A stretch of DNA of 37,713 nucleotides from Anaerolineae bacterium (GTDB lineage: Bacteria > Chloroflexota > Anaerolineae > Aggregatilineales > JAFGMM01). Shown piece by piece: positions 283 to 21,812 of the stretch. The notes below the pieces were generated by a model that saw only the letters and a program-made list of their open reading frames with translations, did not search any database and was not told the origin of the DNA. Position numbers and translations under genes: made by a program. The stretch is from positions 1 through 37,713 of the forward strand of contig JAFGMM010000231.1 of the NCBI GenBank assembly GCA_016927535.1, read 5' to 3'. Each line of letters begins with the position of its first letter. The first letter of the stretch is position 1.

Positions 283-1044
283 TCAGGGAATCACGATCTG
301 CTGCCCGACGCTCAGACGGTCCGGGTTGGCCTTTACTTCTGGGTTTACATCCATGATCGCCTGCATCGACACCCCGAAGCGATTCGCAATCGAAAAGAGC
401 GTATCGCCGGCCTTGACGACGTAAATCGTCCCGCTGCCGGGCACAGCGCCGCTGCTGGTCGGCGCCGGCGCTTGGCCGCCTGCCCCACAGTTCGGACGGC
501 GCAGCACCGTACCGGCTGCGACCGAGTCGGGATTGGTGATGCCGTTCAGCTTGGCGATGGCATCGACGGTCGTGTCCCATGCCAGCGACAGCCGGAACAG
601 GTTTTCTCCGCGCTGCAAGACGTGCGTACAATCGTCGTTGACGGGCAGGGCGGTCGGCGCCGGGCGGTCGGCGCCGCCGACGTTGGTCGGCGTGGGGGGG
701 AGCGTCGGCGCGTCGGGATCGACGGTCGGCGCGTTGGGATCGACGGTCGAAGCCGGGGACTGCGTAGGCACGGCGACGCCGGTTGCGGCCATCGTCGCCG
801 CGATGGCGGTCGTTGTCTGTGCGATGGGCGGCAGGGTTGCCTGCGCCGACCCCGGATCGGGCGCCTGCGACGTGGCCGTCGCCGGGAGCGGCACGGCGGT
901 GCTGCCTGGGTCAATTTCACCGCCGATTGTGGATTGCAGCGGCTCGGCGGCAGGCTGGAAGCACCCGGTCGCCAGCGTCATCACGAGTCCCAGCGAGCAC
1001 AGCAGTCCCCAGATATACTTTGTGTGTGTGTTACCGTTCATCAT
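283..1044 (-). CDS. Secreted lipoprotein with two LysM-like domains and a Pro/Thr-rich linker
   Basis: Start at ATGATG preceded by AGGAGG; signal peptide with lipobox (LATGC); C-terminal YVVKAGDTLFSIANRFGVSMQAIMDVNP...LSVGQQIVIP is a clear LysM; upstream CTHVLQRGENLFRLSLAWDTTVDAIAKLNGI is a second LysM-like unit. Confidence 0.85.
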   Translation of the reverse strand: MMNGNTHTKYIWGLLCSLGLVMTLATGCFQPAAEPLQSTIGGEIDPGSTAVPLPATATSQAPDPGSAQATLPPIAQTTTAIAATMAATGVAVPTQSPASTVDPNAPTVDPDAPTLPPTPTNVGGADRPAPTALPVNDDCTHVLQRGENLFRLSLAWDTTVDAIAKLNGITNPDSVAAGTVLRRPNCGAGGQAPAPTSSGAVPGSGTIYVVKAGDTLFSIANRFGVSMQAIMDVNPEVKANPDRLSVGQQIVIP

Positions 1045-1173
1045 TTTGCCTCCTGACCCACCCTCATCACGAATCCACACAAACCCTCAAGATGCGCGTG
1101 GTCACTCTTGGATATAACTTGCACGTATGGGGGGCCGGATACAAGAGGTACTTCAGCTATGAGGATACATGAC

Positions 1174-1200
1174 TCCCCGCAAGTTGGCAACTTGCGGGGA
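1174..1200. terminator. Hairpin (12-bp perfect stem, 3-nt loop) between two minus-strand genes
   Basis: TCCCCGCAAGTT-GGC-AACTTGCGGGGA; downstream of the 1224-1682 gene; no clear U-tract, so terminator role is inferred. Confidence 0.5.
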
Positions 1201-1223
1201 ATCGGGGAGTGAGGTTGACATCC

Positions 1224-1682
1224 CTAGTTTGCAGTGAAGTTGACATCCTGCGACGAGGGGATTTCGTGCGCCGACCGCTTCGGTTTGAGCACCAGGAACG
1301 CGCCGACGCCGATAAGCGCCAGGGGCCACAGTCTCAAGACGGTGCGGAAGACAGAGCCGATCCCCTGCGCGACGCGGTTGGCGAAGTCGCCCGCATCGCG
1401 GCCAAACTCGCCGGCGGTCCTGCCGAGGTCCCGGCCAAGCTCGCTCATGCGACCGCCCAGATCGCGCCCCATCTCGCCGGTCCGCCGGCCGATATCGTGC
1501 CCGAACTCGCCGACGCCGCGCCCGATTTCGCCGAAGGTGCGGCCCATATCGCGCCCCAGGTCCGGGAGCCGGTAGGCAACTGCGCCGCTGTTGACCAGCA
1601 GCCCGACCACGCCGGCGAAGATCAGCAGCAGGGCCAGGCCGATTTGTAATGACTTACGACTGCTGCGCTTTTTCGTAGCCAT
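1224..1682 (-). CDS. Small membrane protein with glycine-spaced amphipathic heptad region between two TM segments
   Basis: MATKKRSSRKSLQIGLALLLIFAGVVGLLV (TM1), DLGRDMGRTFGEIGRGVGEFGHDIGRRTGEMGRDLGG... repeat, LRLWPLALIGVGAFLVLKP (TM2). Confidence 0.7.
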   Translation of the reverse strand: MATKKRSSRKSLQIGLALLLIFAGVVGLLVNSGAVAYRLPDLGRDMGRTFGEIGRGVGEFGHDIGRRTGEMGRDLGGRMSELGRDLGRTAGEFGRDAGDFANRVAQGIGSVFRTVLRLWPLALIGVGAFLVLKPKRSAHEIPSSQDVNFTAN

Positions 1683-1775
1683 GCGATGCTCCTTAGACAA
1701 AAACCTTAGTTCAGATCGTCTAAACCTCATATACGCAGGCAGCCGCGTAAGGGTTGCGCCCACGCGCCGTTTTCG

Positions 1776-2588
1776 TCACACGCCGCTGTATGCGCTGAAG
1801 CCGCCGTCAATCGGCACCACGACGCCCGTGACGAACCGCGACGCATCGGAGATCAGCCAGATCACCGTACCTACCAGGTCCTCCGGCGCGCCGTAGCGCG
1901 CCATCGGCGTATGGTCGATGATCTGCTGGCCGCGCGGCGTCATCGCGCCGGTTTCGCGGTCGGTGAGCAGGTAGCGGTTCTGCTCGGTGAGGAAGAAGCC
2001 CGGCGCAATCGCGTTGACGCGAATGTTGGGGCTGTATTCCTGGGCAAAATGCACCGCGAGCCACTGCGTCAGGTTGTTGATCGCCATCTTCGCCGCGCCG
2101 TAAGCCACCACGCGCGTCAGCGGGCGGATGGCGGTCATCGACGAGGTGTTCAGAATCACACCCTCGCCCTGCTCGGCCATGATCTCGCCGAACACCTGCG
2201 AAGCCAGCACCGTGCCTAGAAAGTTCAGGTTAAACACCCAGTTCAGCGCTTCCGGCGGGATATCGAAAAAAGAACGCTCGCCCGGCGTGGTGGTCGCGTC
2301 GGCCCGGTTGCCGCCCGCGCCGTTAATCAGCACGTCCACCTTGCCGAACGCCTTAATCACCTCGTCGGCGGCGTCTTCAATCGACTCCCGGTCGAGCACG
2401 TTGCAGGCCACCCCGACCGCCTCGCCGCCGGCTTCTTTCAACTCCTCGGCGAGCGCGTTCGCGCCTTCCTCGTTCAGGTCCAGGATGGCGACTTTTGCGC
2501 CGGCTGCGACCAGGCCCTTCGAGATGGTGGTATACAGCACGCCCGCGCCGCCCGTAATGGCGACGACCTTGCCCGTCAAATCAAACAT
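1776..2588 (-). CDS. SDR family oxidoreductase, probable D-mannonate oxidoreductase (fructuronate reductase)
   Basis: Rossmann TGGAGVLY, NGAGGN, Y-AAK catalytic motif (VAYGAAKMAINN), C-terminal IDGGFSAYSGV; immediately downstream of uronate isomerase. Confidence 0.85.
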   Translation of the reverse strand: MFDLTGKVVAITGGAGVLYTTISKGLVAAGAKVAILDLNEEGANALAEELKEAGGEAVGVACNVLDRESIEDAADEVIKAFGKVDVLINGAGGNRADATTTPGERSFFDIPPEALNWVFNLNFLGTVLASQVFGEIMAEQGEGVILNTSSMTAIRPLTRVVAYGAAKMAINNLTQWLAVHFAQEYSPNIRVNAIAPGFFLTEQNRYLLTDRETGAMTPRGQQIIDHTPMARYGAPEDLVGTVIWLISDASRFVTGVVVPIDGGFSAYSGV

Positions 2589-2590
2589 GT

Positions 2591-4003
<1,413 letters not shown>

Positions 4004-11388: not shown

Positions 11389-13302
11389 ATGGGAAAAATT
11401 ATCGGCATCGATCTGGGTACGACTAACTCAGTATGCGCCGTCATCGAGGGCGGCGAACCGGTCGTCATCCCTTCGGCAGAAGGAAGCAACCTGTTCCCTT
11501 CGGTGGTCGCGCTCAACCCGAAGAGCGGGGAGCGGCTGGTGGGTCAGGTCGCGCGGCGGCAGGCCATCGTCAACCCCGAAAACACCGTCTTCTCGATCAA
11601 GCGCTTTATGGGGCGCAAGTTCAAAGACGCCGAAGTGCAGCGCGCCTTGAAGCTCGTCCCCTACAAGGTGACGGCGGCCCCTAACGGCGATGTGCGCGTT
11701 CACATGGGCGACAAAGAATACTCCCCGCCCGAAATCTCGGCGATGATCCTCCAGAAGATCAAAACCGACGCCGAAGCCTACCTGGGCGAAACGGTCACGC
11801 AGGCCGTCATCACCGTGCCGGCCTACTTCAACGACAGCCAGCGCCAGGCCACCAAAGACGCCGGCAAAATCGCCGGCCTGGAGGTGCTGCGCATCATCAA
11901 TGAGCCGACCGCTTCGTCGCTGGCTTACGGCCTGGGCGAGAGCAAAGACGAGACCATCGCCGTGTACGACCTGGGCGGCGGCACCTTCGATATCTCGATC
12001 CTGGACGTGGGCGAGGGCGTGTTCGAGGTGCGCTCGACCAACGGCGATACGTTCTTGGGCGGCGACGACTTCGACCAGAAGATCATCGACTGGATCGCCG
12101 ACGAATTCAAGAAAGACCAGGGCATCGACCTGCGCAACGACCGCCAGGCCCTCCAACGCCTGAAGGAGGCGGCGGAGCGCGCCAAGATCGAGCTATCGAC
12201 CACCATGCAGACCGAGATCAACCTACCTTTCGTCACTGCCGACGCCTCCGGTCCCAAGCACCTGAACATGACGCTCACCCGCGCCAAGCTGGAGCAGCTC
12301 ACCGAAGACCTGGTTGCGCGCTCCATCGGCCCGTGCGAGCAGGCGCTCAAGGACGCCGGCCTGACCGTCAAAGACATCGACGAGGTGGTGTTGGTGGGCG
12401 GCATGACCCGCATGCCGGCCGTCCAGGCGGCGGTTAAGAAGCTCTTCGAAAAGGAGCCGCACAAGGGCGTCAACCCTGACGAAGTAGTCGGCGTCGGCGC
12501 GGCGGTCCAGGGCGGCGTGTTGGGCGGCGAAGTAAAGGACATCCTCCTGCTCGACGTGACGCCGCTTACCCTCAGCGTCGAGACGCTGGGCGGCGTGGCC
12601 TCGCCTTTGATCGAACGCAATACCACGATCCCGGTAAACAAGAGCCAGATTTTCTCCACCGCCGCCGACGGCCAGACCCAGGTCGAGATTCACGTGGTCC
12701 AGGGCGAGCGCCCGATGGCCGCGCAAAACAAATCGCTGGGCCGCTTCATCCTGGACGGCATCCCGCCGGCGCAGCGCGGCGTCCCGCAGATCGAGGTTAC
12801 TTTCGATATCGACGCCGACGGCATCCTGAACGTCAGCGCGAAGGACAAGGCCACCGGGCGCGTGCAGCGCATCACCATCACCGCGTCCAGCGGCCTGAGC
12901 GATAAAGAAGTTGATCGCATGGTGAAGGAAGCCGAGCAGCACGCCGCCGAGGACTCGAAAAAGCGTCAGGAGGTGGAGGTCCGCAACGCCGCCGACTCTG
13001 CCGTCTACAGCACCGAGAAGTTCATCCGCGAATACGGCGACCGGCTGCCCGAAGCGGCGAAGAACCGGGCCGAAGCCAAAGCCGAAGCGGTGCGCAAAGC
13101 GCTTGAAGGCGGCGATATCGAGGCCGCGCGCCGCGCCACCGAAGAACTCCAGCGCGAACTGCAAGAGCTGGGTGGGCAGATGTACGAAGCGCCGGCCGGC
13201 GCGGGTCCTGGCCCAGGCGCGGCCTATGGCGCCGGTCCCACCGACGGCGACACTGCCCCCGGCGGCGAGGACGTGGTGGACGGCGAGTTCACCGAAGCGT
13301 AA
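11389..13302 (+). CDS. dnaK: Molecular chaperone DnaK (Hsp70)
   Basis: [75 protein letters not shown]. Confidence 0.99.
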
Positions 13303-13327
13303 AAATTTTAGGTATCGGCGCGGCAGA

Positions 13328-13359
13328 TTCGTCGGGGTGGGCAAGCCTGCCCCGACGAA
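13328..13359. repeat. Hairpin repeat downstream of dnaK
   Basis: TTCGTCGGGG ... CCCCGACGAA, 10-bp perfect arms, 12-nt spacer; shares its flank with a hairpin at 26574. Confidence 0.6.
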
Positions 13360-13436
13360 AACGTGTAAAATGATACCGGAGCACGCAGATGAAACGTAGT
13401 GCAAAACCGGTGTAGATGCTTTGAATAAGGGATACG

Positions 13437-13575
13437 GTTGGCGAACTTGCTCCCCCTCACCCCTGGCCCCTCTCCCACGCTGGGGAGAGGGGAAAAACGC
13501 GCGTGGTTCGGCATGATTCTGGCTCCCTTTCTCCCCTTGTGGGAGAAAGGGTTGGGGATAGAGGGGTTCGCCAAC
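13437..13575. repeat. Dispersed double-hairpin palindromic element with 10-bp terminal inverted repeats (dnaK-dnaJ intergenic)
   Basis: GTTGGCGAAC (13437-13446) and GTTCGCCAAC (13566-13575) flank CCCTCACCCCTGGCCCCTCTCCCACGCTGGGGAGAGGGG and CTTTCTCCCCTTGTGGGAGAAAGGGTTGGGGATAGAGGGG. Confidence 0.75.
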
Positions 13576-13604
13576 AACATCAATAAGGTTCAGGTGGGCA
13601 GGGT

Positions 13605-14753
13605 ATGGCAGCACAAAAGCGCGATTACTACGAAATCTTGGGCGTCGGGCGCGGCGCGACGAAAGAAGAGCTAAAAAAAGCGTTCCACCGGCTGGCGCGC
13701 CAGTACCACCCCGACGTGAGCCAGGAGCCGGACGCCGAGGCGCGGTTTAAAGAGATCAACGAAGCGTACAGCGTGCTCAACGACCCCGACAAGCGCGCCC
13801 GCTATGACCGCTTTGGGCATCGCGGCATCGGCGTAGACCCCGGCGGCTTCGGCGGTATGTCGGGCTTCCCGGACTTCGAGGAAATCTTCGCCGATTTCTT
13901 CGGCGGCTTCACCAACGTGCGCGACACGAGCCGCCGTCGGCGTGGCCGGGACCTGCACCTTGACCTGACCATCGACTTCGAGGAAAGCGTCTTCGGCGCC
14001 GAAAAAGAAGTCGAGATCAACCGGTTGGAGCACTGCCCGGTTTGCAGCGGCAGTGGCGCCGAGCCGGGCACTTCGGCGCGCCGGTGCGCCGAGTGCAACG
14101 GCACCGGCCAGGTGCGCCAGGTGCGCCAATCGCTTTTCGGCTCGATGCTCTATACTACGCAGTGCCCGCGCTGCCAGGGGCGCGGCGAAGTCGTCGATAC
14201 GCCGTGCAAACATTGCAACGGGTCGGGCAAGGCGCAGGTGCGGCGCACGATCAAAGTCAAGGTGCCGCCGGGCATCGACGATGGGATGCAGATCCGGCTC
14301 AGCAACCAGGGCGAACCGGGCGACTCCGGCATGGCAAACGGTGACCTGAACGTAAACGTGCACGTGCGGCCCCACCAGTTTTTCCGCCGCCGCCACGACG
14401 ATATCATCGTCGAGATTTCGATCAATATCGCGCAGGCCGCCCTGGGCGATAAGATCATGGTGCCGACGGTCGATGGCGATATGGAGCTGAGCATCCCCAA
14501 CGGTACCCAAGCCGGCAAAGTTTTTCGGCTGCGCGGCAAAGGCGTCCCGCACCTGCGCCGTGACGGGAGCACCTCCGGTCGCGGCGACCAATTGGTCGTC
14601 GTGCAGGTGGCCGTCCCCACCCGGCTCACCGCCGAACAACGCGAACTGTTCGAACGGCTGGCTGCGACGATGGGCAGCGAGGTCATCACCCAGAAGAACG
14701 AGAACAAAGGGTTCTTCGAGCGGGTTTGGGATTGGCTGAGCGGCGAGCAGTGA
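13605..14753 (+). CDS. dnaJ: Molecular chaperone DnaJ (type I, four zinc-finger repeats)
   Basis: J domain DYYEILGVGRGATKEELKKAFHRLARQYHPD; zinc repeats CPVCSGSG, CAECNGTG, CPRCQGRG, CKHCNGSG. Confidence 0.98.
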   Translation: MAAQKRDYYEILGVGRGATKEELKKAFHRLARQYHPDVSQEPDAEARFKEINEAYSVLNDPDKRARYDRFGHRGIGVDPGGFGGMSGFPDFEEIFADFFGGFTNVRDTSRRRRGRDLHLDLTIDFEESVFGAEKEVEINRLEHCPVCSGSGAEPGTSARRCAECNGTGQVRQVRQSLFGSMLYTTQCPRCQGRGEVVDTPCKHCNGSGKAQVRRTIKVKVPPGIDDGMQIRLSNQGEPGDSGMANGDLNVNVHVRPHQFFRRRHDDIIVEISINIAQAALGDKIMVPTVDGDMELSIPNGTQAGKVFRLRGKGVPHLRRDGSTSGRGDQLVVVQVAVPTRLTAEQRELFERLAATMGSEVITQKNENKGFFERVWDWLSGEQ

Positions 14754-14766
14754 GCCGGGCCGCCCG

Positions 14767-15303
14767 TCAGCGGCTCAGCGTCAGCCACTTCTCCATAATC
14801 CAGCACGCCTCTTCCACGTAATGTATCTTCCCGGTGTGGTCTTCAAACTGCCAACGCCCCGGATCGTCGTCGATGATATCATAGCCCAGGCGCTTGTACA
14901 GGCGCATTGCGCCGGTGTTCGTCTTGCCCACCGCAATTGTCGCCCGTGCAAAGCCCTGCTCCACCAAGTTGTGCTCCGCCGCCTCCACCAGCGCCGTACC
15001 CAACCCCCGGCGGCGGAATGGCTCCATCACCCGCAGCGCATACAGGTAGCCGTGCGGCGCTCTGTGCCGGATGCCCAGCCCGCTCGCCAGGTTGACGAAG
15101 ATTTGCCCGACCGGGAAGTCGCCCACATCGGCGACCCACATGATCTGTCGCCCCATCATGAAGTCGCGGTAGGTTTCCTGAAACAACTTGCGATAGCACG
15201 TATACGCGCCGAACCACTCCAGCTTGAGCAGGTCATCCTCGGTCGCCGGCCGGATCGTCACGGGCACCTGCAACCAGATCACCTGTTTGTCGATGACGAC
15301 CAC
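14767..15303 (-). CDS. GNAT family N-acetyltransferase (start uncertain, possibly GTG near 15303)
   Basis: VTIRPATEDDLLKLEWFGAY...LYALRVMEPFRRRGLGTALVEAAEHNLVEQGFARATIAVGKTNTGAMRLYKRLGYDII; classic GNAT R-R-G-L-G-T acetyl-CoA motif. Confidence 0.88.
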   Translation of the reverse strand: MVVIDKQVIWLQVPVTIRPATEDDLLKLEWFGAYTCYRKLFQETYRDFMMGRQIMWVADVGDFPVGQIFVNLASGLGIRHRAPHGYLYALRVMEPFRRRGLGTALVEAAEHNLVEQGFARATIAVGKTNTGAMRLYKRLGYDIIDDDPGRWQFEDHTGKIHYVEEACWIMEKWLTLSR

Positions 15304-17966
15304 ACCCCCTCCTCGGCTTGTTCCTCTGTTGTTGTCTTCTCTTCTCCGCACTCCCACGCGCGCCCGTCGATCAGCTTTCCCAGCAGCGCGCGCTCCCCGG
15401 CAGCGTCGCTCACCTCGCCGTCGAGCCACGCATCGCGCAGCCGGCCCAGCAGCCACCTGAAGCATGGCCCCGGCTCCAGGCCCAGCGCTTTGAGGTCCTC
15501 GCCGGTCGTCACCGGGCGCACCTCCCGCAGCCGCGCCGCATACGCCGCGATTGGTTCGCGCGCCGCCTCGCCCGCCGCCGCCCACAGCGCGGCCAATCCC
15601 TCATCGCCCAGCGGCGCCAGCCAGCGGGCCAGTTCGCTGGGGCGTTGGTGGGTCTCGAGCGCGGGCATGTACTGCACATAGACGCGCCGCGCCTCCACCA
15701 CGCCCTCCACCGTGCGCCGCTTGACGCGCAGCCGCCGGCACACGGCGCGCTGGTCGGCCTCGGCGAGCCGCAAAGTCATCAGCATAAAGTACGGCAACTC
15801 CCACCAATTCGCGCCGCGCGCCGGGTCGGCGAGCGCCGGCCAGGCCGGCCGCATCCGCGCCGCGCGCAGCGCAGCCATCGCCGCGCACAGCCAGTCATCC
15901 ATGCCCAGCGCCGGGTGGATCTGCGCCAGCACGCCCAATTCGTCCAGCCGGGCCAACGCCATCTCCGGGCGCGCCTCGGCCAGGATCGCTTCGAGTTCGT
16001 GGCGGATGCGCGCGCCGCTCACCCGGTCCAGCATCGGCAGCGCCGAACCGATTAGTTCCAGCGTGCGCGGCTCAATCGTAAAGCCGAGCCGCTGTTCCAG
16101 GCGCGCCGCGCGCAGCATGCGCGTCGGGTCATCGACGAAGCTCAGGCTGTGCAGCGCCCGGATGACCTTGTTTTGCAGGTCGCGCTCGCCGCCCCAGAAA
16201 TCCAGCAGTTGGCCCAGCGGCGGCGGCGCCAGCCGCAGCGCCAGCGTATTGATCGTAAAGTCGCGGCGGTGCAGGTCCAGCTTGATCGAGCTGTGGTGCA
16301 CGGTCGGCAGGGCGGTCGGGTGCTCGTAGAACTCATCGCGCGCCGTCGCAAAGTCGATCACTTTGGGGACGCCCGGCCTGCCGCCGTACTCCCCCCCTGT
16401 CAACTGCCACTTCGCCGTCCCGAAACGCTCATGGCTCACGTAATGGCCGCCGAAGCGCGCGCACAAGCGCTGCACCAGCTTGATCGCGCCGCCTTCCACC
16501 ACGAAGTCGATATCGTTCTTGCCGGGCACGCCGAGCAGCAGGTCGCGCACGAACCCGCCTACTACGTAAAGCCCCATGTTCAGCCCCGCCGCCGCCGTGC
16601 TCACGGCGCGCACCATCGCCATCGCGTCGGGTGTCAGCGCCCCCTCCAGCAGCGCCGCCATCTCGGCCCGCCGGGCGGTCGAAACGCCGCTCCACTGGTT
16701 GATCAAATCGGTGCGCGTCACCACGCCCAGCAAGTCGCCGTCGCCGTTGATGACCGGCACCTGCCCCCAGCCCGACTCGATCATCACCCGGCGCAGCCGC
16801 CCGACCGTATCGCCCGGATGCACGGTGACCGCGCCGCTTTTCATCAACTCGCGCACCGGCGTATCGCCCAGGCCGTGGTCGATGGCGCGGTCTACCGCGT
16901 GCCGGGTCACCAGGCCCACCAACTGGCTGCCGCGCAGCACCGGGTAGCCCTCGTGACCGGTGCGCCGCATCCGCTGCTCCACCGCTTCGGCGGTCTCGTC
17001 CGCATCAACCGTCAGCACGCCGTAGGACATCAAATCGCCTACGGTGGCGCGCGGCTGCACCGCCGCCGCGAGCGCCCGGATCAACTGGGCGCGCGCCTCC
17101 GCCATCGTGCGGTCGCGCACCAACGCCGCCGCCGCGCGCCGGTGGCCGCCCCCGCCGAACTGCTCGGCGACCTGCGACACGTCCACCTCGTCGGTGGTGC
17201 TGCGCGCCACCAACTGCAAGCGGTCTGGGTTCTTCAACTCCACCAGCATAAACAGCCCCGCCGGCTCCAGCATGTCGCGCAGCCGGTGCGCGACCGTCGA
17301 AAGCTCCTCTACCATCTCCGGCGCGGCGGCGGTTGCGACGACGACCGGGTGCCCTTCCACGTCGAGAGTTTCGGCGTTTTCGAGCAGCCGGTCGAACAGC
17401 TTATGCTGGTCGTCGCTCATCGGCATCGCCATAAACCGGCGCACCACGTCCAAATCGGCGCCCTGTTCCATCAGCCACGCCGCGCAGTGCGCGTCGCGCG
17501 GCGTGGTGGTGCCGTAGGTCAGCGCGCCGGTATCCTCGTACAGCCCAAGCAGCATGAGCGTCGCCTCGACCGGCGAGAGCGCGACGCCGCGCGCCCGCAA
17601 CTGCTCGCCCAGCAGCGTCACGTTTGCGCCGACCGGGTCGCCGGTAAAGCGCCAGTAATCCGGCATATCGTCGCGCGCCGGCCCGTGATGGTCGATAAAC
17701 GTAATCGGCGTCGTGGGGCGCATGCCGCGCACCGTGCGGACGCTCTGGGTATCGACGATGGTCACGTGCTCGACGCGCCGGCGCCGGAGGTCGCCCGGCT
17801 CGACAAAAGGGAAGCGGTCACCGTACAGGGCCAGGAACTCACGCACGTTCCGGTTAAGGCGCAGCGAGAGCACCGGGATGGATTCCGGATCGAGAATGTG
17901 CGCCGCAAGCTGCGAGGCCACGGCGTCGCAGTCGGCGTTTTCGTGCGTGAGGATCAATTTAACCAA
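15279..17966 (-). CDS. DHH phosphoesterase-like - CBS pair - tRNA nucleotidyltransferase/poly(A) polymerase fusion
   Basis: N-term THENADCDAVASQLAA, FIDHH, GGGGHRRAAAA (DHH/DHHA1); two CBS units (VGDLMSYGVLTVDADETA..., VRELMKSGAVTVHPGDT...); YVVGGFVRDLLLGVPGKNDIDFVVEG and RRDFTINTLAL (class II NTase). Confidence 0.95.
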   Translation of the reverse strand: MVKLILTHENADCDAVASQLAAHILDPESIPVLSLRLNRNVREFLALYGDRFPFVEPGDLRRRRVEHVTIVDTQSVRTVRGMRPTTPITFIDHHGPARDDMPDYWRFTGDPVGANVTLLGEQLRARGVALSPVEATLMLLGLYEDTGALTYGTTTPRDAHCAAWLMEQGADLDVVRRFMAMPMSDDQHKLFDRLLENAETLDVEGHPVVVATAAAPEMVEELSTVAHRLRDMLEPAGLFMLVELKNPDRLQLVARSTTDEVDVSQVAEQFGGGGHRRAAAALVRDRTMAEARAQLIRALAAAVQPRATVGDLMSYGVLTVDADETAEAVEQRMRRTGHEGYPVLRGSQLVGLVTRHAVDRAIDHGLGDTPVRELMKSGAVTVHPGDTVGRLRRVMIESGWGQVPVINGDGDLLGVVTRTDLINQWSGVSTARRAEMAALLEGALTPDAMAMVRAVSTAAAGLNMGLYVVGGFVRDLLLGVPGKNDIDFVVEGGAIKLVQRLCARFGGHYVSHERFGTAKWQLTGGEYGGRPGVPKVIDFATARDEFYEHPTALPTVHHSSIKLDLHRRDFTINTLALRLAPPPLGQLLDFWGGERDLQNKVIRALHSLSFVDDPTRMLRAARLEQRLGFTIEPRTLELIGSALPMLDRVSGARIRHELEAILAEARPEMALARLDELGVLAQIHPALGMDDWLCAAMAALRAARMRPAWPALADPARGANWWELPYFMLMTLRLAEADQRAVCRRLRVKRRTVEGVVEARRVYVQYMPALETHQRPSELARWLAPLGDEGLAALWAAAGEAAREPIAAYAARLREVRPVTTGEDLKALGLEPGPCFRWLLGRLRDAWLDGEVSDAAGERALLGKLIDGRAWECGEEKTTTEEQAEEGVWSSSTNR

Positions 17967-17994
17967 AATGCCTTTGCCTCCAGTCTATATCCTA

Positions 17995-20900
17995 TTACGG
18001 CGCATCGCTTGCCCAAATCGTGAGCGTCTGGCCGCGCGCCGCCAGCGCCGGGTCGAGAATGGGCAGCGGGCGGCCGGTGAAGTGATCGTACACCAGCAGT
18101 TCGAGCCGGGCGCGCTGACCTTCGGCTGCCTGGTCCGGAGCGACCAGCGTGTGCCGGTCGGTGACTGTGCTGCCCCACGTCCACTTGAGCGTAGGGATCG
18201 CGCCGGTCGCCGGGACGTGATCGCTCTGCGCGCGCCATGCCCATTCGCTTTCTATTAAGTCTACTTTAACTACGTCATCTTCTGCCAGTGGGTACGCCGC
18301 GCGGAAGCGCAGCGCCGTCTCGATGCGCGCGCCCGGCGTTAAAGCCGGCGGCGCATCGACCTGTACGCCGGTCAGCACGACGCCGCTCCCCAGCGGTACG
18401 TAGCGGTCGCCGGGCTGCGGGCCGGGCAGATCAACGCTGTAGCCCACCGCCAGGCCGAACGGCCCCATCACACGTTGGAGGCAGAGGCAGTCGGCGGCCT
18501 GGAGCGCCAGCCGCACCCGGTCGATACCGGGCGGCAGGTCGTGCGCGGTGCTGAAGTAGTCGCCGGGGTGGGCGCGGAAGCGCTGCTCGTCCAGCGCCAC
18601 ATCGCCCCGGCTCAGCGTGATATCGTAATCGGCCCAGCCCGCCGCGCCCCGGTAAGACCAGTGCAGGTACAGGCGCGCGCGCCCCGGCAGCGACAAATCA
18701 TAATCGTAGCCGGTCAGCGTCAGGCCGTCCTCGAAACGGTCGTGGCGCGGGTGCTCCGTGACCACGGGCAGCGCCGCTCGCGGCGATGCGCCGCCGTCGT
18801 AGCGCGCAATGCGCACGCGCGCGCCGCCTTCGGCTGTGAGCAGCGGCGTGATGCCGTCGATCCCCTGCGTGTACAACCCGGCCCACAGCTCGACGCCGGC
18901 CGGCAGCCGGTCGAGCGTGTAGCGCGCCAGGAGGATATCGCCGGGCCGCGCCTGCGCCGCCGCGAGCCGTACATCGTCCTGGCGCACCACCTGCCCCGCG
19001 CCGTCGACGGCGTGAATGAAGCTCGTCACATCTTGCCCAGGCGTCACATCGACCCGCCACGCCAGCGTCACCGTAACCGGCGCGTAGCCGCCCGGCGCGT
19101 CGATGCGCGGCCCGCCGGCCAGTCTCACGCCGCCCGCAAAGTCAACGGCCAGCGGCGGCAGTTCCGGCGGGATATCGCGGCGCGGCGCGCGGCGCACCAC
19201 CCAGCCCGGCCCGCCGACCTGCGGCTCGAAGACGCAGCCGCTCGCCGCGTAGGCGTCGGGGTAGTAGCTCTGCACCACGACCGGACGGCCCGCCGCCAGG
19301 TACTCGCCGGCCCGGCGCGCCCACGTCGCCGCGAGCGGCTCCGCGCCGGCGGGGTAAACGTACACGACTGCTACATCCGGGCGGCGCGCCTCGATCTCTT
19401 GCAGATACCACAGCGCCGTGCTCCAGTGCCAGTTGGCGAGCAGCACAGCGTCCGGCGGCGCGGCGTCGAGCAGGCTCTCGGCGAAGCGGCGCGTGTGGGC
19501 GTCGCCGGCGCGGTAGACCATGCCGGGGAGGTTCGCGGCGGCGGTCAATGCGCCGCCCAGTAAAACCAGCGCGGTCAGAATATTCACCACGGAGACACAG
19601 AGGACACGGAGAGAAGAAGACGGAGAGGAATGTATAGAAAACTCTGCGCCCTCTGTGTCTCTGTGGTGAAAATCTTCTTTCCTCCCCCACGTCCCGACCA
19701 GCCACCCCACGCCCGCCGCCAGGCACACGTAGGCCGGGATCATGTACTCGACGGTCTGCGGCGCGCGGTAGGTGGCCGCGACGAAAGTATGCAGCGCAAA
19801 CGCGCCGCCCAGCGCGAACAGCAGCCCGCGCGCCCGCCACAGCATCAACAGCGCCGCCAACAGCGCCGCCGCCAAGACCAGCCCGTGCCACTGGAACGCC
19901 AGCACCTCGCCGAGCGTGCGCAGCCGGGCGAGCAGTTCGTCCGGCGCGCGCACGTAGAACAGGTCGCCGGCGAAGCCGCGCGCCAGCACGTGCTGCCAGA
20001 AGCCCGCCCAGGTGCGCAGGTCCGCGCCGATTCGGTCAACCGCCGGGCCGAGCGCCGCCGCGCGCAGCGGCAGGTAGAGCCACGGGAGAAATCCCAGCGC
20101 GAAGGCGATGCCCGGCTTGAGCCAGCGGCGCGGCGCGCGCAGCAGCGACCGGTCGGCGGCGAGCAGCGCCAGTACGAATATCCCGGCGACGAAGACAATC
20201 GAGGCGTGGTGCGTAATGCCAAGCCCCAGACAGAGCGCGAAGCGGGTGAGTTTCCCCTCTCCCCTAAATCCCCTCTCCCACAAGGGGAGAGGGGACTTTC
20301 GGAGCGCGCTCCGGCCCCCTTTCCCCCCTTGTGGGGGGAAGGGCTGGGGATAGGGGGGGGGATAGGGGGTGTTTAGAGAAGCGGCAGCCGCCCGCCGGTA
20401 GGCCAGCAGCGCATCCAACAGCAGCGCGACGAAAAGCGCGGTCATCGGGCGGACGCCGGCCTGTGCGGCGGTGGTCCAAAAGCTGGTCGCTGCGCCAAGC
20501 ACGAGCGCGGCGGCAAGCCCGGCCTGCGGCGAATGCGTCTCGCGGCGGACGGCGCGGCACACCACGGCGAGCGCCAGCGCGGCGCTCAGCGCCGAGAACA
20601 GATTCGCGCGGTGCGCCGGCGCGCCCGGCAAGAACTGCCCGAACAGCCAACCGAGAGCAGTATAGAGCGGGTAGCCGGGCGGGTGCGCGATGCCCAGCCC
20701 GGCCAGCGTGAGTTGAAATTCGCCCTCGTCGGCGGGCAGCAGGCCGGGCGCGCCGGTCGCGGTGTAGACGGCGAACGCGGCCAGCACGACCAACACCTCC
20801 CAGCCCATGCCGTCCGGGAGGCGCGCCGCCGCCAGCCACGCCGCCAGCGCCAGCACGCCCGTGACGCCGGCGGCTGCCGGGTCGGCGCCGGGATACAGGA

Positions 20901-21135
20901 TGTAGATCACCAGCGGCAGCGCCGGCCATACGGCACCGGTCAGGCACGCGAGCGCAAATCCGCCGGCCATGCCCGCCGCCAGCGCCAAGACGAAAAGCGG
21001 GACGATACCGGCGCCCGGCCCGGCAAACTCCGGCAGCACCCGGCTGAGATAAAGGCCGCATAGCAGTCCGGCGGCCAGGCGGCGTACATTGGGGTCGGCG
21101 GCGAGCCGCCGGACCGGTGTCATAGGCTTATCCAT
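17995..21135 (-). CDS. DUF2723 family polytopic membrane protein (probable lipid-linked-sugar glycosyltransferase-like), with two in-frame palindromic insertions
   Basis: GEFQLTLAGLGIAHPPGYPLYTALGWLFGQFLPGAPAHRANLFSALSAALA is the DUF2723 signature; multiple TM segments; C-terminal extracytoplasmic beta-rich regions. Confidence 0.85.
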   Translation of the reverse strand: MDKPMTPVRRLAADPNVRRLAAGLLCGLYLSRVLPEFAGPGAGIVPLFVLALAAGMAGGFALACLTGAVWPALPLVIYILYPGADPAAAGVTGVLALAAWLAAARLPDGMGWEVLVVLAAFAVYTATGAPGLLPADEGEFQLTLAGLGIAHPPGYPLYTALGWLFGQFLPGAPAHRANLFSALSAALALAVVCRAVRRETHSPQAGLAAALVLGAATSFWTTAAQAGVRPMTALFVALLLDALLAYRRAAAASLNTPYPPPYPQPFPPQGGKGGRSALRKSPLPLWERGFRGEGKLTRFALCLGLGITHHASIVFVAGIFVLALLAADRSLLRAPRRWLKPGIAFALGFLPWLYLPLRAAALGPAVDRIGADLRTWAGFWQHVLARGFAGDLFYVRAPDELLARLRTLGEVLAFQWHGLVLAAALLAALLMLWRARGLLFALGGAFALHTFVAATYRAPQTVEYMIPAYVCLAAGVGWLVGTWGRKEDFHHRDTEGAEFSIHSSPSSSLRVLCVSVVNILTALVLLGGALTAAANLPGMVYRAGDAHTRRFAESLLDAAPPDAVLLANWHWSTALWYLQEIEARRPDVAVVYVYPAGAEPLAATWARRAGEYLAAGRPVVVQSYYPDAYAASGCVFEPQVGGPGWVVRRAPRRDIPPELPPLAVDFAGGVRLAGGPRIDAPGGYAPVTVTLAWRVDVTPGQDVTSFIHAVDGAGQVVRQDDVRLAAAQARPGDILLARYTLDRLPAGVELWAGLYTQGIDGITPLLTAEGGARVRIARYDGGASPRAALPVVTEHPRHDRFEDGLTLTGYDYDLSLPGRARLYLHWSYRGAAGWADYDITLSRGDVALDEQRFRAHPGDYFSTAHDLPPGIDRVRLALQAADCLCLQRVMGPFGLAVGYSVDLPGPQPGDRYVPLGSGVVLTGVQVDAPPALTPGARIETALRFRAAYPLAEDDVVKVDLIESEWAWRAQSDHVPATGAIPTLKWTWGSTVTDRHTLVAPDQAAEGQRARLELLVYDHFTGRPLPILDPALAARGQTLTIWASDAP
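19583..19670. repeat. Dispersed palindromic repeat (TTCACCACGGAGACACAGAGG family) inside the DUF2723 ORF
   Basis: Arms 19583-19610 and 19643-19670, 24/28 identical after reverse complement; encodes FHHRDTEGAEFSIHSSPSSSLRVLCVSVVN in frame. Confidence 0.85.
20254..20374. repeat. Dispersed double-hairpin palindromic element (CCCCTCTCCC...GGGAGAGGGG family) inside the DUF2723 ORF
   Basis: Encodes NTPYPPPYPQPFPPQGGKGGRSALRKSPLPLWERGFRGEGKLT in frame; similar in layout to the intergenic element at 13437-13575. Confidence 0.8.
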
Positions 21136-21272
21136 GCGCCCTATTGAACCGTAAAGTCGGCCAGTAAGCCAGAACTCATATCGAGACGAGCGCACGAGCG
21201 CCGAGTTTCTGGATTGGCGTATAGACGTATAATGGAGGTTGTGCTAAGCGACAATTTTGGGATGTAGGAGTT

Positions 21273-21812
21273 ATGGTGATGTTGAAATCTACAGCGAGGT
21301 TGTTGGGGTTGCGGGTGTTGATCGTGCTGCCGGCGCTGCTTGCCGCTTGCGGGACGCCGGCCGCAGGGCCTACGTCGTATCCGACCGTGACGCCGCGCGC
21401 GGTCCCATCCGGCCCGATGAAGCTGGTCGCGGGATGCGAACTCGCCGACCTGGACGACTGGAGCGAGCGCGCGGCTTACCTGGCGGAGGCGTTCGGCGGC
21501 GTGATGCTGCAAGCCATCGACACGCCGCGCACGGAACTAGAGCCGCTGTTGAGCCAGATGGATGCATACAAGCGCAGCATCAACGATTTGATCGTGCCGG
21601 CAGACTGTGCAAAAGAAACTCACGAACTGCTGAGCGCGCTGGCAGCGGAAGTAACCGGCGCGTTCGAGGCGGCGCGCGCCGATCCCGCCGCCGATGTGCA
21701 GTCTGTTGTCACGCGCGCCCAGGCTACCTTGCAGTTGATTCGGGCCCGCATCGCCGACCTGACCACGCAAATGCAGGCGACCTATGATGCCGCCGACGCC
21801 GGGTTGCAGTAG
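21273..21812 (+). CDS. Small putative lipoprotein, unknown function
   Basis: TAGGAG SD; lipobox VLPALLAACG; helical C-terminal region. Confidence 0.7.
   Translation: MVMLKSTARLLGLRVLIVLPALLAACGTPAAGPTSYPTVTPRAVPSGPMKLVAGCELADLDDWSERAAYLAEAFGGVMLQAIDTPRTELEPLLSQMDAYKRSINDLIVPADCAKETHELLSALAAEVTGAFEAARADPAADVQSVVTRAQATLQLIRARIADLTTQMQATYDAADAGLQ

Follow-up and report, generated by a model that had tools for sequence, protein, structure and literature searches.

The window analyzed here, i.e. the whole stretch of 37,713 nucleotides from an Anaerolineae bacterium, carries on its minus strand a gene for a DUF2723 protein whose reading frame is crossed by two unrelated palindromic repeats, called A and type-B below. 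Other copies of A are found in an intergenic region and at both ends of the contig. The features are the following.

17995–21195, minus strand: TMEM260-like / DUF2723 protein (PF11028, E 1.6e-17), GT-C-type membrane protein, 1066 aa
20254–20374, minus strand: in-frame coding stretch TPYPPPYPQPFPPQGGKGGRSALRKSPLPLWERGFRGEG within the 1066-codon ORF
20254–20358, unstranded: A core, 105 bp, double hairpin with outer arms CCCCTCTCCCC / GGGGATAGGGGGG
20270–20294, unstranded: hairpin 1, CCCCTCTCCC-ACAAG-GGGAGAGGGG
20300–20313, unstranded: small central hairpin CGGAGCGCGCTCCG
20315–20344, unstranded: hairpin 2, CCCCCTTTCCCCCC-TTGT-GGGGGGAAGGG region
20346–20369, unstranded: 12-bp tandem duplication of the A end, GGGGATAGGGGG x2, by direct reading
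19580–19673, unstranded: type-B palindromic repeat (CACCACGGAGACACAGAGG...), in frame in the same DUF2723 gene, unrelated to A
13449–13567, unstranded: intergenic A copy, subfamily A2
13437–13448, unstranded: outer arm of the intergenic copy, containing TTGGCGAACT
13565–13576, unstranded: matching outer arm of the intergenic copy, GGTTCGCCAA...
73–111, unstranded: A copy close to the left contig end
37665–37713, unstranded: A copy at the right contig end, where the contig breaks

Direct reading of the sequence confirmed that a palindromic element lies in frame in the minus-strand ORF of the DUF2723 gene, as an earlier note on this DNA had claimed, and that a second, unrelated repeat (type-B) is also in frame in the same gene. 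The peptides given in that note for the window copy and for the minus-strand translation of the intergenic copy were both correct on re-reading. Direct reading and BLAST delimit the DNA repeat itself to a 105-bp double hairpin at 20254–20358, the remainder to about 20374 being made of a 12-bp tandem duplication of the A terminus and of local sequence. The duplicated terminus (GGGGATAGGGGG twice) provides four extra codons, PPYP/PPYP. A thus adds about 40 amino acids to a loop of the DUF2723 protein and leaves the reading frame intact.

The fold of A comprises an outer stem, hairpin 1, the small central hairpin and hairpin 2. Compared with dinucleotide shuffles, the fold of the window copy is only modestly stable (z -1.97, RNA parameters) and that of the intergenic copy more clearly so (z -4.38, DNA parameters); it is the recurrence of A in the genome, and not the fold score, that places the window copy beyond chance. 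No Rfam family matched window positions 13300–21500 at E <= 0.1, so that A has no match among known structured RNAs. Two-sided covariation is nearly absent among the A copies of the genome (1 of 28 pairs, in an imperfect alignment of the two subfamilies), and structural conservation by selection is therefore not demonstrated.

The genome of origin is a draft assembly of 5.1 Mb in 425 contigs, 89% complete. The exact pattern CCCCTCTCCC-N(2-8)-GGGAGAGGGG occurs 78 times in it, versus 0 for the reversed control. By BLAST, near-complete A copies are 92-98% identical, and a second subfamily, A2, includes the intergenic copy. At least 118 A-type copies, present as single-hairpin units and as double-hairpin units (inverted dimers), were counted in 294 kb of DNA fetched around copies. 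Many contigs end in an A copy, including the window contig at both ends, and because the assembly breaks at A these copy numbers are probably underestimates. Beyond this genome, a sample of 400 genomes of the phylum includes 129 with the CCCCTCTCCC/GGGAGAGGGG stem, in as many as 739 copies, and the stem is also present in named genomes from at least about a dozen phyla; among the matches listed are Chloroflexota, Proteobacteria, Planctomycetota, Cyanobacteria, Acidobacteriota, Armatimonadota, Gemmatimonadota, Nitrospinota, Verrucomicrobiota, Myxococcota (Polyangium), Bipolaricaulota and others. A short stem common to these phyla need not mean common descent, since G/C-rich hairpins can converge. 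A non-exhaustive search of the open-access literature returned no description of the A stem.

We then turn to the orthologs of the window gene. Among 60 relatives searched, 14 genomes besides its own contain the DUF2723 gene at E <= 1e-20. The protein matches break off at residue ~271-273 and restart at ~315, and 12 of the 14 orthologs show only a short loop there, devoid of the insert. These insert-free orthologs show that A was inserted into the window gene, and they are too diverged to define the exact A junctions or target duplications. Two orthologs differ. The one from a sister genus of the same family (genome G001) has an unrelated, longer loop at the A site. The one from another family of the same order (genome G044) displays in the same loop, in frame, CCTCACCCCCGGCCCCTCTCCGTACCGGAGAGGGG, which is a single-hairpin A unit. 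As the other examined members of its family have no insert, this unit is best read as an insertion independent of that in the window. The A palindrome, as defined by the pattern used, is absent from 7 of the 14 ortholog genomes, none of which has A in DUF2723; G044 contains 16 copies and G001 contains 29.

To place the inserts in the protein, we rely on an AlphaFold model built from a 15-sequence alignment (mean pLDDT 82.8, pTM 0.85). In the A insert (model residues 257-260 and 263-283), which is flanked by helices 228-253 and 293-309, the pLDDT falls below 50, as it does in the type-B insert at residues 488-503, in the stretch between helices 461-483 and 507-543. Both inserts are thus predicted to be unstructured loops outside a confident fold, and the location of A between transmembrane segments that had been proposed from the sequence agrees with the model, where the flanking elements are two membrane helices.

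Seven of the eight near-full double-hairpin copies in frame lie in proteins with at least 4 membrane segments, as predicted by simple hydropathy; proteins of this kind make up 22.5% of background coding DNA in the fetched regions. The hosts of these near-full copies match families PMT/PMT_2 (some below the curated cut-off), PTPS-related, YfhO, TMEM260-like or glycosyltransferase group 1/4. In the soluble glycosyltransferase-4, the A insert covers residues 195-228, between the N-domain (ending at 185) and the C-domain (starting at 233). In three PMT-like proteins (contigs C168, C290 and C388), the PMT_2 match runs as far as profile position 93-95, with the A insert shortly after it, a sequence pattern suggesting that the site could be the helix-loop-helix that also holds A in the window protein. 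Apart from the insert, the resemblance among these proteins is only weak, so that a recent duplication is unlikely. In-frame type-B copies are also found in membrane proteins (3 of 3). A type-B repeat is in frame in an O-antigen ligase (Wzy_C; L048:1066-1095, ORF 291-3608). A YfhO-like membrane protein (L146, contig C162, ORF 786-3359) has both A and type-B in frame, like the window gene.

Over about 220 codons, an HdrA-like gene (L125, contig C143, ~20197-20849) includes three A units of the single-hairpin type, all of them in frame and all absent from eight orthologs. On the same contig, a further HdrA-like gene carries one more A unit. In the sister genus, HdrA site 1 is occupied by another insert, which has A-like tracts, and site 2 by TCCCAGGGAGCTCAAGCGCCCTGGGAGCTAC, while the type-B site of its DUF2723 gene holds a GTAG-type REP of clear GTAG...CTAC form (GTAGCTCCCAGGGAGCTTGAAGCGCCCTGGGAGCTAC). 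The repeats at HdrA site 2 and at the type-B site (loci L081 and L399) are nearly identical. As assembled, both genes of this genome have frameshifts and the in-frame status of its repeats is only local. Unrelated palindromes occupy the same loops in different lineages, which supports the idea of permissive loops. Altogether, the suggestion of the earlier note that such loops are permissive landing sites is supported: in-frame copies concentrate in loops and linkers, mostly of multi-spanning membrane proteins, and homologous loops have been filled independently in G044 and G001.

How A moves remains to be considered. A first possibility is that A is the inner part of MITEs belonging to one or several DDE insertion sequences, which would be defined by the outer arms TTGGCGAA, CCAATACTTTTCGGTTAAG and GGTGCACGAAC. 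These three inverted arms do recur around the same A core, and one complete armed unit is translated in frame (C168). However, CCAATACTTTTCGGTTAAG, searched in the whole assembly, was found only beside A copies and with no autonomous element, and several A copies, including that of the window, have none of the three arms (TTGGCGAA and GGTGCACGAAC were searched in the fetched DNA). We thus regard this origin as doubtful. The three arm pairs around one A core can be seen for example at loci L005, L028 and L018, and such interchangeable arms suggest that A is a modular or composite element.

A less probable origin would be a classical REP mobilized by a RAYT, or by a TIRYT, that is by an IS200/IS605-like Y1 transposase. 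The layout of A, with its hairpin, its asymmetric GGGGTGAGGG tail and its dimers, is REP-like, and the GGGGWSAS of TIRYT flanks (PMC3733652) fits GGGGTGAG and GGGGAGAG. The genome also has one clear Y1_Tnp gene, of which the flanks and interior carry a different, GTAG-tagged repeat. On the other hand, we inspected 90 Y1_Tnp loci, in three sets of 30 drawn from the order, from A-rich genomes of the phylum and from named genomes that bear A. At no locus does A flank both sides, and 2 loci have a single A-type motif somewhere. At the Y1_Tnp loci that were read out, paired GGGGWSAS motifs are GGGGTCAG or GGGGACAG, and not GGGGTGAG/GGGGAGAG, so that the resemblance dissolved on reading the motifs. 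Moreover, among 25 A-rich genomes, 9 gave no Y1_Tnp match, and one of these has 739 copies of A; as these genomes are drafts, this absence is evidence against such a transposase and not a proof. We therefore rejected a RAYT or TIRYT as the mobilizer of A and consider this origin unlikely. No GTAG or CGTC terminal tag was found in an alignment of 32 A copies. As a separate observation, the RAYT-like Y1_Tnp gene (L048:3605-4279, contig C16) contains an in-frame GTAG-tagged palindrome, GTAGGGGCGGGTTTCAAACCCGCCCCTAC, inside as well as alongside, which is presumably the own repeat of that transposase.

Another hypothesis is that A would be a protein-coding module selected to stay readable and supplying a useful peptide, an idea close to the proposal of the earlier note that the elements are selected to keep a frame open. 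The count of coding and intergenic copies and of their frames, which that note had recommended, bears on this point. The statistics cover the 294 kb around A copies, and the in-frame classes rest on a home-made codon score, with orthologs as a check for the window gene and HdrA only. This score, trained on the window genes, found the right frame in 500 of 500 test windows of 240 nt taken from the same genes (a training-set test). Among 61 scorable copies, 14, spread over 12 genes, are in frame; 1 has coding flanks on the same strand but in different frames, 0 bring a stop into an otherwise shared frame, 13 have one coding flank, a class that may hide gene ends or disruptions, and 33 are noncoding on both sides. 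Roughly, unfiltered intragenic insertion would be expected to leave the frame open in one case out of five or six (a third for phase and about half for stops). The 14:1 excess of in-frame copies thus indicates that disruptive insertions were lost.

The 14 in-frame copies could also be expected from a readable module, and copies not scored in frame (noncoding, edge or one-sided) do have slightly more open frames than dinucleotide shuffles, 3.22 of 6 versus 2.95 +/- 0.14. However, this excess is marginal, the value of 3.22 being reached by 4.5% of the shuffles, and more than half of the copies (the 33 of 61 above) have no coding flank. All eight near-full copies scored in frame run antisense to their gene, a fact that would also suit a readable module. 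This orientation is explained in part by the antisense frames of subfamily A1, which are open about twice as often as its sense frames; we did not retain the orientation bias as a separate effect, as it is partly due to the A1 stops and as n=8 is too small for more. Furthermore, the frame varies between genes, so that the peptides differ and no common peptide is conserved, and the peptide is disordered in the AlphaFold model. A useful, selected module is thus decidedly improbable. Low stop density and purging suffice to account for the frame pattern, and selection for an open frame is unsupported.

Finally, a repeat-driven misjoin that would have put A into the gene, conceivable in a draft judged from its assembled sequence alone and with many contigs ending in A copies, is extremely improbable because coding is conserved on both sides of the insert, with frame and conserved residues kept and with both sides aligning to the same single ortholog, and because in-frame copies recur in 12 genes and the same loop received an A unit independently in G044.

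The reading that we favor, and that we consider likely, is that A is a non-autonomous, REP/MITE-like repeat that has been inserted many times and that the window insert is an in-frame survivor in a permissive loop of a GT-C protein. The many near-identical copies at unrelated places and the orthologs devoid of the insert show that A has inserted repeatedly in this genome; that the movement is non-autonomous is inferred from the copy number and from these orthologs. Insertions that break genes would presumably be lost and hence rarely seen, and a minority of intragenic insertions would keep the frame, given the length of A (about 105 bp), its richness in G/C and its scarcity of stops. According to the AlphaFold model and the domain boundaries, survivors would reside mostly in exposed loops or domain linkers, where a peptide rich in Pro, Gly and Arg could stay unstructured. 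The window insert would be such a survivor, lodged in a GT-C-type glycosyltransferase where a loop joins two membrane helices, and this loop would accept repeats of the kind in several proteins as well as in a second lineage. By analogy with REPs, one could guess that a hairpin-recognizing single-strand transposase mobilizes A. A broader hypothesis, which we put forward only tentatively, is that certain loops in GT-C glycosyltransferases, like linkers in further enzymes, serve time and again as entry points at which unrelated palindromes independently deposit disordered peptides, so that dispersed repeats would drive loop evolution in these proteins across related bacteria. A may be seen as a natural experiment of insertional mutagenesis, in which the occupied sites map loops that tolerate about 40 extra residues, and its occupancy makes it countable whether mobile repeats shape protein evolution.

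A parallel can be made with several known families. The GTAG/CGTC REPs are small palindromes, often dimeric and mostly intergenic, of which some are translated in frame (Di Nocera et al. 2013, PMC3733652). Their intragenic copies are like A in being short palindromes found as singles and dimers, with in-frame copies and shared use of sites; different REPs at about the same recB site in two Xanthomonas species (PMC3733652) are a precedent for the reused sites seen here. By contrast, A has neither the tag nor an associated Y1 transposase, and its hosts are mainly membrane glycosyltransferases, whereas those of the GTAG/CGTC REPs are DNA repair genes. REPINs and BIMEs share with A the arrangement of two inverted REP-like units with a spacer, but for A no RAYT partner was found and the outer arms are interchangeable. 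In Rickettsia, the palindromic elements (RPE) are palindromic DNA in frame in many genes, where they add extra peptides (PMC3733652). A is RPE-like by function, being in frame in genes (14 copies) and absent from the orthologs of the window gene and HdrA. It differs by its host lineage, its G/C-richness and its peptides in several frames, the likeness being one of description. The enterobacterial RU-1, RU-2 and RU-3 elements are non-autonomous, 103-168 bp long, with open frames, and lie inside genes including those of membrane proteins (Delihas 2007, PMC2759123); they occur in different taxa, and A for its part shows recurring homologous insertion sites. In-frame palindromic repeats are thus already known from the RPE, the intragenic REPs and the RU elements, and what is new here is the A family itself and the repeated use of homologous loops.
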